A stretch of 10,990 nucleotides of DNA from contig ONQH01000019.1 of the NCBI GenBank assembly GCA_900319885.1, forward strand, positions 1 through 10,990, in the 5' to 3' direction. The DNA comes from Candidatus Avelusimicrobium ruminicola. Lineage in GTDB: Bacteria; Elusimicrobiota; Elusimicrobia; Elusimicrobiales; Elusimicrobiaceae. Numbering within the stretch: position 1 is the stretch's first letter; each line of letters starts with the position of its first letter. A program made the position numbers and the translations under genes. Below, one piece after another: positions 3,341 to 10,990 of the stretch. Below the pieces are notes generated by a model. That model saw only the letters and a program-made list of their open reading frames with translations, was not told where the DNA came from and searched no databases.

Positions 3341-4398
3341 TAGATTTGCAAGTTTTTGAGTTTTTGTTCTACGCGGTACGTGCGTAAGTCGGTCAAAATC
3401 GGCTCAATATTTCCTTCCATAATTTCCAAAAGATTATGATAAGAAATGTTGGTGCGGTGATCGGTCACGCGGCTTTGCGGAAAGTTATAAGTGCGGATTT
3501 TTTCCGAGCGGTCCCCGGTCCCTACTTGGCTTTTGCGCTCGTCGTAAATTTCTTTGTTGCGTTTTTCTTCTTCAATCTGGTAAAGTTTCGCGCGAAGCAT
3601 AGCCAACGCTTTTTCGCGGTTGGCGCCTTGGTGGCGTTCTTCGCGGCAGGATACCACAATGCCGGTCGGTTTGTGCAAAATGCGCACGGCAGTTTCCACT
3701 TTGTTAACGTTCTGCCCGCCGTGTCCGCCGGCGCGGGAAGTTTCCAACTCCAAGTCTTCCGGGCGGATTTCAATATCAATTTCTTCGGCCTCCGGCATAA
3801 TGGCTACCGTAACCGTAGAGGTATGCACACGACCCGAAGTCTCCGTATCCGGCACGCGCTGTACACGGTGGGTGCCGGCTTCGTTACGCAGCCACGAATA
3901 GGCCCCGTCGCCTTTGATAAACATACTCACATATTTGCATCCTTTAAGCCCGGTTGGGGTAAATTCCAGAATTTCCGTCGTCCAGCCTTTGGTTTGTGCA
4001 AAGTGCTGGTACACGCGCAAGAGTTCCCCCGCAAACAAGGCGGACTCATCTCCCCCGGCCCCGGGGCGAATTTCCAAATAAATATTTTTGGAATCGTTCG
4101 GATCGGGCGGAATCACCAAAATACGCAGTTCTTTTTGAAGTTCGGGCAGTTTGGCTTCCAGTTCAGCCAGTTCTTCAGCCGCCATTTTAACCAAGTCTTT
4201 ATCTTCGCCGGCCTCAATGAGAGCGCGGTCATCAGCAATGGCTTTTTGCGTTTGGGCGATTTCGTTTTCTTTTTCAATAATGGGTTTTAAGAAGGCGTGG
4301 CGTTTGGCTTTTTTGGTCAGTTCGGCGCCGGACAAATTGCCGGAATATAATTCTTTTTCCAGCGTTTCAAATTCTTGTGCGTATTTAGAGGTATCCAT
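3340..4398 (-). CDS. prfA: Peptide chain release factor 1
   Basis: RF1 recognises UAA and UAG in the ribosomal A site and triggers hydrolysis of peptidyl-tRNA. The 352-residue protein has a helical, charged N-terminal domain, [16 protein letters not shown] (111-126), the [10 protein letters not shown] segment, and GGHGGQ with the catalytic GGQ at 227-229. The PxT anticodon-like tripeptide reads Pro-Asp-Thr at 183-185. PxT, and not the SPF of RF2, supports RF1. GGQ is followed by [10 protein letters not shown], a variant of the common GGQHVNK. The start is supported by an AGGA SD six nt upstream at 4405-4408. The gene begins right after the rpmE terminator, so its transcription may depend on readthrough; I could not find a convincing promoter for it. 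prmC follows with a one-base overlap. Confidence 0.97.
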
Positions 4399-4460: not shown

Positions 4461-4805
4461 CTATTTAGCTTTGGCTTCGGCTTTTTCAGCTTTAGCGGCT
4501 TTTTTAGCAGCCGGTTTTTTTACTGCGGCTTTTTTGGCCACCGGTTTTTTGAGTTTGGCTTTGGCCTTTACTTCGGTTTTCGGTTTGCGAACCATCGTTT
4601 TACCTTCGGTTTTGGCAAAGCGTTTGTTGAATTTTTCTACCATACCTTCGGTGTCCAGTAATTTTTGTTTACCGGTGAAGAAAGGGTGGCAAGCGGAGCA
4701 AATGTCCAGCTTTAGGGTTTTAGCGGTGGAGCGGGTCATAAATTTGTTGCCGCAGGCACAAACCGCTTCTACGAATTCATACGTGGGGTGTAATTTTTCT
4801 TTCAT
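4461..4805 (-). CDS. rpmE: Large ribosomal subunit protein bL31 with Lys/Ala-rich C-terminal tail
   Basis: bL31 bridges the large and small ribosomal subunits. The ATG at 4805 gives 114 residues starting MKEKLHP, the classic bL31 start, with an AAGGAAG SD eight nt upstream. An upstream in-frame ATG at 4871 would lie ahead of the promoter -10 and is rejected. Cys16, Cys18, Cys36 and Cys39 form the zinc-binding set of the C+ type. The core ends around residue 65 (VEKFNKRF). The remaining roughly 50 residues are low-complexity Lys, Ala, Val and Pro with repeated AKK/KKPxAKKAA units, like histone H1 tails. Ordinary bL31 is about 66-90 residues, so this is a clear extension. It has its own promoter and terminator, and sits between rho and prfA as in the rho-rpmE neighbourhoods of many bacteria. 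Confidence 0.95.
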
Positions 4806-4813
4806 TGTTTTGT

Positions 4814-4820
4814 CTTCCTT
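4814..4820 (-). promoter_or_regulatory. rpmE ribosome binding site
   Basis: AAGGAAG lies eight nt upstream of the ATG at 4805. It decides the bL31 start in favour of MKEKLHP over the longer open frame. Confidence 0.8.
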
Positions 4821-4838
4821 ATCAAAATCTTGTACTTT

Positions 4839-4868
4839 ATTATAGCATATCTGGCGGGAATTTGGAAA
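4839..4868 (-). promoter_or_regulatory. rpmE promoter, extended -10
   Basis: A perfect TATAAT (4844-4839) is preceded by TGC (4847-4845), giving the extended -10 form TGnTATAAT. A weak -35, TTTCCA (4868-4863), sits 18 nt further up. Transcription should begin near 4832, giving a leader of about 27 nt before the ATG at 4805. The -35 lies within the hairpin sequence that follows rho. Confidence 0.8.
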
Positions 4869-4886
4869 CAAGTTTCTTTCCCCGCC
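4853..4886 (-). other. Hairpin between rho and rpmE overlapping the rpmE -35
   Basis: On the minus strand GGCGGGGAA (4886-4878) can pair with TTCCCGCC (4860-4853), with one bulged G, around an inner GAAAC/GTTTC pair. It begins five nt past the rho stop. There is no T-run after it, so it is a poor intrinsic terminator. It may be a pause or 3'-end stabiliser of the rho mRNA, or an operator over the rpmE promoter. The role is unknown. Confidence 0.55.
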
Positions 4887-9600: not shown

Positions 9601-9924
9601 TTATTTAAGTAGTTCGTCTAGTTTGGCGGCTAAACCGTCTTTAGATTGCAAACCCGTCGTTTGGAAGGCAATCTGCCCGCCTTTGAACGCAATGAGCGTA
9701 GGCACGGACGAAATTTGATATTTCCCGGCGGTGTTCATCCCTTGGTCCACATCCAATTTGCAGACTTTTACTTTGCCCGCATACTGGTTGGCTAATTCTT
9801 CCACCACAGGGGCAAGCATACGGCACGGGCCGCACCACGTGGCCCAAAAGTCCACCAGCACGGGTTCTTTGGCGTTTAGCACTTCTTGTTCAAAATTGGC
9901 ATCTGTTAAAATGACTTCGCTCAT
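9601..9924 (-). CDS. trxA: Thioredoxin
   Basis: This cytoplasmic protein-disulfide reductant is normally recycled by thioredoxin reductase. The 107-residue protein is a single thioredoxin fold with FWATWCGPCR (active-site Cys31 and Cys34), Asp25 in the VDFWA strand and the cis-proline segment SSVPT (Pro75). A third cysteine, Cys55, lies in the KVCKLDVD strand. There is no signal peptide. The start is supported by a GAGG SD five nt upstream and by a promoter that leaves a short leader of about 22 nt. It forms its own transcription unit, with an intrinsic terminator eight nt after the stop. Its placement next to a cysteine-rich protein gene is noted, but they appear separately transcribed, and a cytoplasmic thioredoxin would not act directly on an exported protein. 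Confidence 0.97.
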   Translation of the reverse strand: MSEVILTDANFEQEVLNAKEPVLVDFWATWCGPCRMLAPVVEELANQYAGKVKVCKLDVDQGMNTAGKYQISSVPTLIAFKGGQIAFQTTGLQSKDGLAAKLDELLK

Positions 9925-10024: not shown

Positions 10025-10057
10025 AATAAAATCCCCCGGATCAAGCCGGGGGAAAAT
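10025..10057 (-). terminator. Intrinsic terminator after the Cys-rich protein gene
   Basis: The inverted repeat CCCCCGG/CCGGGGG (10052-10046 and 10039-10033) has a 6-nt loop and one further T-A pair. On the minus strand it is followed by ATTTTATTT. It lies about 20 nt past the stop at 10074 and cleanly separates this gene from the trxA promoter. The remainder of the 9925-10073 gap shows nothing else. Confidence 0.9.
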
Positions 10058-10073
10058 TGTGTCAACTACTACT

Positions 10074-10990
10074 TTACTGACATTCTATTAGTCTATAATA
10101 GTCCCTTCCAAAAGTTACCGCTGTACCCCCAGTGCCAACCCCAGTTTGTCCACCCGGGAAGGAATTATTTCTCCTACATGTTTCAATATAAGTACCAGCA
10201 GGGTTACCCGCCACAGGTTGCGCCACACACACACATGTTGTTCCTGAAGGGCAAGACTTCGTACATGAGTGAGGGCATCCGGTCGTTGTGGTCTGATTGC
10301 CAGGATTATAATAAATGTCATAGCAGGATTCATGATTTGGAGGAACGCCAGCATATTGCTCCTCATTATTTCCATCGCATGTGTCTTCCCCTGTATAAGA
10401 GGTTAATTCCGTATAAGAAAGGTTACACTCTTCTTCAGGAGTACACTCCCCCGTCCATTCGCCGGCTTCATATTTCCCAGTGCTTGAATTACACTCATAA
10501 GAACGGGTTTGCGTTCCGGTTCCTTCGGAACATTCCTGCGTTTCGTCTTGCGGTTTAGTTTCACAAGTACAATTCTCTTTTTCATCCTGTGTTAAATCGG
10601 TCGGTTCATCTGTAAAAGAAACCCACGCATTGCTTACACAACGCTTGCCGCTCTTTTTACCACATTTGGACGATGTAATCTGTTCTTCCCCTTCCGTACA
10701 GGTGGGGCATGCCTCACATTTCGGTTCCCAGGCTCCGGTTGTAGTATTACATTCATAGGTGCACGTTACACTTTCCCCCGTGGAACAGGTTTTCGTGGTA
10801 TCGCCCGGCTGGGGAGTGCCGTCATCCGTGCTTGCAAAATGTTTCCAAGTACCGCCTTCACATCTTTCCCCGCTGGAACCAGTACAATTGTGGTTCACAT
10901 GACGGGTTTCCCCTTCACTACACGTAGTAGGGTCAACAGTAATATCGTGACATTGGTTAACTTGCTCATACCCGGTACAATCCGCATTCG
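10074..10990 (-). CDS. Cysteine-rich modular repeat protein, 5' end outside the window
   Basis: I do not recognise a named family. The frame is open through the right edge: 30 complete codons precede a GTG at 10898, so that GTG is probably internal and the true start lies outside. The visible 304 residues contain 28 Cys and much Thr, Ser, Gly, Asn and Glu, with no membrane segment, as expected for an exported disulfide-bonded surface protein (inference). Residues about 23-187 hold four modules of the form C-[ST]-x-G-x(8,9)-C-x(3)-[ST]-G, alternating as A-B-A-B. The last part (about 188-304) has a dense Cys cluster (SCTKSC..GTTCVCV), then a Gly/Thr-rich linker and a short YYRLIECQ end. Such C-terminal regions can follow a pilin-like or signal-peptide N-terminus, which cannot be checked here. 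Its 3' half uses ACA, TCA, AGG and AGA codons freely, and looks different from the housekeeping neighbours. A strong terminator follows. Confidence 0.8.
   Translation of the reverse strand, partial: NADCTGYEQVNQCHDITVDPTTCSEGETRHVNHNCTGSSGERCEGGTWKHFASTDDGTPQPGDTTKTCSTGESVTCTYECNTTTGAWEPKCEACPTCTEGEEQITSSKCGKKSGKRCVSNAWVSFTDEPTDLTQDEKENCTCETKPQDETQECSEGTGTQTRSYECNSSTGKYEAGEWTGECTPEEECNLSYTELTSYTGEDTCDGNNEEQYAGVPPNHESCYDIYYNPGNQTTTTGCPHSCTKSCPSGTTCVCVAQPVAGNPAGTYIETCRRNNSFPGGQTGVGTGGTAVTFGRDYYRLIECQ
10428..10922 (-). repeat. A-B-A-B cysteine module repeat within the Cys-rich protein
   Basis: Four diverged units begin at visible residues 23, 68, 97 and 153 (about 10922, 10787, 10700 and 10532). 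Each begins Cys-Ser/Thr-x-Gly, has its second Cys 12 or 13 residues later, and a Ser/Thr-Gly pair four to five residues after that. Units 1 and 3 continue with SGERC or SGKRC, then a Trp and a polar linker (A type). Units 2 and 4 continue with TGAW or TGKY and further Cys (B type). The repeat is visible at protein level; I did not see long exact DNA repeats. Confidence 0.7.

Follow-up and report, generated by a model that had tools for sequence, protein, structure and literature searches.

A cysteine-repeat array at a contig edge in a gut Elusimicrobiaceae genome, probably the stalk of a modular type IV pilin with exchanged heads

Introduction

What kind of protein carries cysteine units that alternate in a regular order at the very edge of a contig, and what could such a protein do for a gut bacterium? 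The window, that is, the whole stretch of DNA analysed here, is the entire contig C106 (10990 bases) of MAG G000, an assembly of 1.2 Mb in 176 contigs that is 83% complete. On its minus strand, an open frame of 304 aa (10074..10988) begins at the contig edge (10988) and ends with a stop at 10074; the frame is open at its 5' side, where the gene continues off the contig, and about two thirds of the gene is present.

Flagellar machinery is given as absent from Elusimicrobiota genomes in a published study (PMC11257099), and for that reason we regard pili as a likely means of contact in this group. In the open literature (titles and starts of abstracts, mostly without subscription papers) no description of a Cys-repeat pilin family was found, with an earlier mention in the E. 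minutum genome paper being possible.

Results

The pattern C[ST]xGx(8,9)Cx3[ST]G has four matches in the frame, at residues 23, 68, 97 and 153 (window positions 10922, 10787, 10700 and 10532, reading downward), which confirms the four cysteine units in A-B-A-B order that the first-pass annotation had described, here on the minus strand, together with its spacings of 74 residues (A to A) and 85 residues (B to B) and its cysteine content of about 9% (28/304, 9.2%). More than one match was found in 0/20000 full shuffles and in 0/20000 shuffles with the cysteines fixed. In self-alignment against shuffled Cys-rich sequence, A1/A2 (z = 9.2) and B1/B2 (z = 4.9) were clearly above the shuffles, the four A/B cross pairs aligned weakly (z from 0.6 to 3.5), and the combined pair A1B1/A2B2 gave z = 9.7, which supports a duplicated A-B order.

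Both A units have three cysteines, namely A1 (residues 22-54, 10827..10925, minus strand; A profile 3e-19), which is probably a divergent member of the B family, and A2 (residues 96-128, 10605..10703, minus strand; A profile 4e-20). Unit B1 (residues 67-94, 10707..10790, minus strand), recognised by the pattern and by the B profile (7e-7), has five, while B2 (residues 153-182, 10443..10532, minus strand; B profile 8e-14, and 7e-17 in the genome search, at 10437-10580) forms, together with the CxC of the preceding linker, a B repeat minus the fourth cysteine. The remainder, residues 183-304 (10077..10442, minus strand), is a C-terminal head. It was suggested earlier that A and B might be separate disulfide-bonded domains, which does not fit the odd numbers of cysteines in A1 and B1. 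As hand counting gives 3 in A1 and 5 in B1, and 8 in A2, linker and B2 together, the A-B pair may be the folding unit.

Since the N-terminus of the window gene is off the contig, it was sought through full-length relatives, and a prepilin motif was found there. The frame has eight matching database proteins. Seven of them, 431-493 aa long, are clearly related to it (E 3.5e-35 or better), and one, P0008 (463 aa), is distant (E 0.018). A prepilin-like N-terminus can be seen by eye in all eight, and among those scanned, P0001, P0003 and P0005 pass the N_methyl Pfam cut-off (P0001: PF07963, 26.6 bits against a cut-off of 21.2), with P0008 slightly under it; one relative bears the source name PilE. 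The closest comparison is with the prepilin-type P0001 (470 aa), to whose residues 167-470 the window frame is 84% identical over its whole length. Because the full-length relatives start with a prepilin signal, we read the window frame as the ectodomain of a modular type IV pilin of gut Elusimicrobiaceae, and the window gene presumably has a prepilin signal of its own. This agrees with the earlier guess of an exported, pilin-associated ectodomain, the relatives carrying PF07963/TIGR02532. All 66 genus genomes searched have matches to P0001, mostly via its N-terminal part, and in each of four genomes, G000 included, there are four matches to the assembly ATPase family and one to prepilin peptidase.

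Behind the pilin module, these proteins have an extra part in which repeats start near residue 160 and are followed by the head. The NCBIfam matches located in P0001 all lie within the pilin part, and a family profile run against solved pilins matches the N-terminal part only. Neither Pfam nor PHROG gave the scanned proteins anything better than E 0.005 behind the pilin part (the best match, Trypan_PARP in L119, had 0.0052 and was far below the cut-off). The remark that the array belongs to no named domain also stood up, as the window frame had no Pfam or NCBIfam match with E up to 1, and among solved structures the B profile had one match (E 0.42) and the window region two (E 1), which we take as spurious. 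The long Cys-rich proteins are accompanied by many short ones in at least one genome: the 1.6-Mb G014 has 91 prepilin-type matches, 4 long and Cys-rich and 87 shorter, mostly of 155-219 aa.

Profiles of the units were built and searched. The B profile found 301 units in 154/173 family proteins (of 415 relatives, the best 120 were used), mostly 38-56 residues long from neighbour to neighbour and usually with six cysteines, and the first unit begins at residues 160-189 in 125/154 proteins. In the subset of 94 tandem, non-redundant repeats parsed by a fixed expression, 76 have six cysteines and 80 an even number, although related sequences are not independent. Among 294 sampled phylum genomes the B repeat is present in 47 (E up to 1e-4), which belong to a single family and come from three genera, the window's own (38 genomes), a second (8) and a third (1). 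It should be noted that 4 of the 20 seed pieces behind the phylum scan, the PDB search and the shuffles described below had one to four flanking letters foreign to their source proteins. In the second genus (L233, L234, L235 and L236), B repeats occur in frames of 1301 (cut), 1866 and 2290 aa with a different prepilin start, and also in frames of 164 and 219 aa with no pilin motif.

Unit A, searched with a profile rebuilt from real matches, is present in 13/173 family proteins. Segments in L191, P0103, P0115 and P0120 match both profiles (A profile 2e-4 to 3e-3, B profile 2e-9 to 0.04), and because of these intermediates A and B look like the two ends of one repeat family, with A as a divergent B. 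This gives no support to treating A and B as unrelated domain types; still, neither A unit of the window was matched by a B profile in the search that found the intermediates. By our own reading of the intermediates, the three cysteines of A correspond to the second, third and fifth of a six-Cys B; as this is another register, the pattern common to A and B pairs non-equivalent cysteines.

Placement in a known domain such as thrombospondin type 1 had been named as a finding that would speak against a new module, and here the answer is divided. TSP1_ADAMTS was matched weakly (E up to 10) by 14/20 isolated exact B units, a count that recurred with slightly differing pieces, and by 0/20 Cys-fixed shuffles; the best E value, 0.0013, lies under the curated cut-off, and the nine full-length relatives and the window frame had no match. 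The apparent likeness lies in W..G.W..C and CG....R.V.C blocks in a tandem array, and the difference in about 20 residues that separate the two blocks here and in no score over the Pfam cut-off. We regard it as a lead and not as membership. An EGF-like domain was considered as well and rejected, with no Pfam match better than E 1 in the window frame and nine relatives and with 1/20 isolated units at E 7.1.

DsbA, DsbB and VKOR families had no match in four genomes (G000, G014, G065 and G072) that encode Cys-rich exported-type proteins, while matches were obtained in control genomes (DsbA 8/14, DsbB 6/14, VKOR 3/14). For this reason disulfides in the repeats are an assumption, and the same result suits another explanation, in which the repeats bind metal through their cysteines. 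Many B repeats do contain CxxCG, and 4/20 isolated units matched a zinc ribbon weakly (best E 0.019); however, one shuffled unit matched a zinc ribbon too, CxxCG is missing from B2 of the window and from 31/94 repeats, where the knuckle has no fixed replacement, and the repeats sit behind an exported pilin module. We therefore find metal binding quite unlikely, although the absence of Dsb and VKOR matches counts against our own reading, in which the repeats would form disulfides.

The heads differ between copies and species. Among 121 proteins with long enough heads (the short-headed P0111 and P0113 are excluded), there are 167 pairs whose pilin parts show 97% identity or more; the last 130 residues of these pairs are unrelated in 53 (score under 80) and score 400 or more in 108. 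Many of these pairs are not independent, so groups were counted beside them, and 13/16 groups of proteins with such near-identical pilin parts hold more than one head type. P0003 and P0005 match the pilin part of P0001 without a difference over 125 residues and have other heads, and the window's type of head is common to P0001 and P0002 and absent from P0003-P0007. The reverse case is given by P0001/P0002, with heads 99% identical on pilin parts that are 69% identical. The window frame is itself a patchwork, being identical to P0005 at residues 71-90, to P0002 at residues 101-120, to P0003 at residues 131-150 and to P0001/P0002 at residues 161-180.

This mosaic of P0001-P0007 was read at the protein level. 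In a site-order test on the window and P0001-P0004 (29 sites), 0/2000 permutations equalled the observed order at neighbourhoods 3 and 5, and 1526/2000 at neighbourhood 10, which is not significant; with eight sequences (residues 1-95) the result was 0/2000 at neighbourhood 3 and 3/2000 at neighbourhood 5. A diversity-generating retroelement was also considered for the variation and rejected, since 13 close orthologues (the P0082-P0102 group) vary in short blocks of the ectodomain and, by eye, show no scatter in one C-terminal region.

The chromosomal site of the window gene can be compared as well. Downstream of the pilin gene and on the same strand, a terminator-like hairpin with a T tail (10032..10053, minus strand; 1 found against 0.4 expected from shuffles) is followed by trxA (9601..9924, minus strand; PF00085 5e-34) and by polA (from annotated matches). 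Beyond polA, judging from translations, are genes that we take to be coaE, rho, rpmE, prfA, prmC, murA and folC, and a frame at 4461-4871 (minus strand) is presumably a ribosomal protein L31-like protein with a long Lys/Ala-rich C-terminal tail. A tblastn search of polA against plasmids gave nothing with at least 60% identity.

In G031, where PolA is 92% identical, the order pilin-trxA-polA is the same as in the window; DNA identity is 85% from 86 bases behind the window pilin stop into polA, and there is no match in the ectodomain. The G031 ectodomain contains A- and B-type units and only its head differs, being of the P0003 type (43% over 218 residues) with no match to the window head. A close relative thus carries another head at the window's own trxA-polA site, as read from the two assemblies, in one of which (G031) the pilin gene is broken by a frame change. 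In G003 (PolA 90%) no Cys-rich pilin was seen at this site, and a window-like ectodomain (46% over P0001 residues 263-469) lies elsewhere, beside apparent ABC transporter genes. By our own reading, a Cys-rich pilin-type frame adjoins trxA in 9/30 polA loci (G000, G031, G019, G007, G010, G051, G001, G048 and G054), and G035 and G002 have a Cys-rich pilin at the trxA site too; trxA-polA therefore stands beside a Cys-rich pilin in some other species and marks the site.

Within single genomes, the comparison was made on 47 Cys-rich prepilin frames longer than 200 aa from the fetched loci. A 5' DNA tract with 68-97% identity is common to 40/40 within-genome pairs (11 genomes) and reaches the 3' end in none. 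It ends at codons 55-67 in 10 pairs, at codons 124-169, approximately the end of the pilin domain, in 25, and at codons 247-278, approximately the region behind two repeats, in 5. When nearest neighbours were determined (46 frames, one with a head under 130 residues being dropped), the nearest N-terminal neighbour was from the same genome in 23/33 proteins and the nearest C-terminal neighbour in 5/33, with a maximum of 7 in label shuffles either way; the frame of L143, which has a wrong-frame tail, is outside the 33 counted. In G028 the heads are related as well, and one pair has a separate 3' match. Mixed strains in MAGs could mimic some copies, but a tandem pair on one contig of G014 (2 contigs), 94% identical over 845 bp, speaks otherwise.

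These observations have to be weighed against ordinary modular pilins that were duplicated and then diverged under constraint on the pilin module, with fast-evolving heads and no exchange. Plain conservation of the pilin part could explain the 10 pairs that share only their first 55-67 codons, identities do fall to 68%, and the heads of G028 are related like their pilin parts. Against this, N-terminal neighbours track the genome and not the head, the tracts reach 97% DNA identity and end abruptly, the window gene is internally a patchwork, and in P0001/P0002 the head is far better conserved than the pilin part, all of which makes divergence alone an unlikely explanation.

Programmed variation of the pilE/pilS kind, in which silent copies feed one expressed copy, would share with our proposal the mosaic alleles and the different heads at one site, and there are broken-looking copies (four matches with internal stops, and frame changes in G031 and G010). 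However, the majority of the copies read have an open frame and a start of their own, and in most a purine-rich stretch that resembles a ribosome site can be seen by eye upstream; G014 has four open long genes, and an array of promoterless cassettes was not noticed among the copies read. A programme of this kind appears very unlikely to us, and we keep to homologous recombination among mostly open genes. A strict AGGAGG-ATG pattern had no match in L136.

The contig edge itself deserves a comment. Among seven contig pairs that end inside such genes, six share exactly 141 (G060 on both sides, G019, G022), 99 (G003) or 77 (G052) bases, and the seventh (G058) ends at different places. The numbers 141, 99 and 77 are k-mer sizes in common assemblers, and overlaps of exactly this size are expected if copies share a tract longer than k. 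The edge of the window contig may have the same cause; in the incomplete MAG G000, neither a second gene copy of the window kind nor a partner contig for the broken edge was found, and several copies in this very genome would be expected from its relatives.

Frame changes break two of the relatives, L143 near 4280-4300 and L144 near 2050, with no long run at either place; they may be real or assembly errors. Switching by homopolymers inside the genes was rejected, as 4/47 genes have single runs of 7 G or C and the window gene has no such run. Long Cys-rich pilins are in several cases preceded by promoter-like stretches with T runs of 12-18 (L184, L186, L106, L204, L206 and L218), whose length differs even within one genome (12 and 18 in G040), and these are a candidate for switching by tract length. 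In G014 (loci L251-L280), TTGAC with a short spacer and T11-14 occurs at 27 distinct sites, 26 of which lie 30-97 bp upstream of a prepilin match. At the 16 sites read out beside short pilin genes, this element is followed by TGATAAAT and by an inverted repeat, perfect to varying degrees, around the start codon. The arrangement resembles a promoter/operator common to the genes of a pilin regulon in G014; a loose expression of the motif was not seen in 28 pilin loci of G000.

Discussion

Taken together, we consider it probable that the cysteine array serves as the stalk in a modular type IV pilin whose heads and repeats are exchanged among copies by homologous recombination, and that such pilins are tip adhesins. 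The N-terminal third, off the contig, would supply the prepilin signal and the pilin domain and bring the subunit into a type IV filament, where A and B, as tandem Cys/Trp repeats from a single family, would act as a spacer and the variable C-terminal head would bind a ligand, most likely at the filament tip. Several such genes would lie at scattered sites of the genome, and homologous recombination would keep their 5' parts alike and trade repeats and heads from copy to copy, so that close relatives could have different heads at the same site. The combination of a nearly constant anchoring half with a reshuffled Cys-rich outer half hints that this gut bacterium exchanges the tips of its surface hairs.

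A broader picture can be offered more tentatively, with chances that we see as somewhat short of even. In it, gut Elusimicrobiaceae would have a genome-wide system of filament-tip cassettes, with a homogenised assembly module, stalks and heads traded at module borders and, at the same site, different heads in close relatives, and the six-Cys repeat may be a bacterial thrombospondin-like fold with no recognisable Dsb/VKOR pathway. If true, recombining modular pilins would make the choice of ectodomain the variable part of contact, there would be a new repeat to classify, and it would be explained why several metagenome assemblies of the group break inside these genes.

Several known systems resemble the one proposed here. 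In Neisseria pilE/pilS, mosaic pilin alleles arise as by recombination between copies, and mosaic pilin alleles are found here too; unlike in pilE/pilS, most copies here are open genes, they lie at scattered sites, and a constant 5' part is combined with a grafted ectodomain that varies. The PilV shufflon of IncI plasmids has a constant N-terminal pilin part and exchangeable C-terminal ends, which is also the arrangement of the present family, although a single locus with invertible segments was not noticed here. In Streptococcus sanguinis PilB, an already known modular pilin (PMC8179133), a prepilin module is likewise followed by an extra C-terminal module, for which a place at the filament tip and a role in adhesion are proposed. 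Compared with PilB as presented there, the extra part in gut Elusimicrobiaceae is an array of cysteine repeats with a variable head that has no named domain, and it occurs in several mosaic-looking copies.
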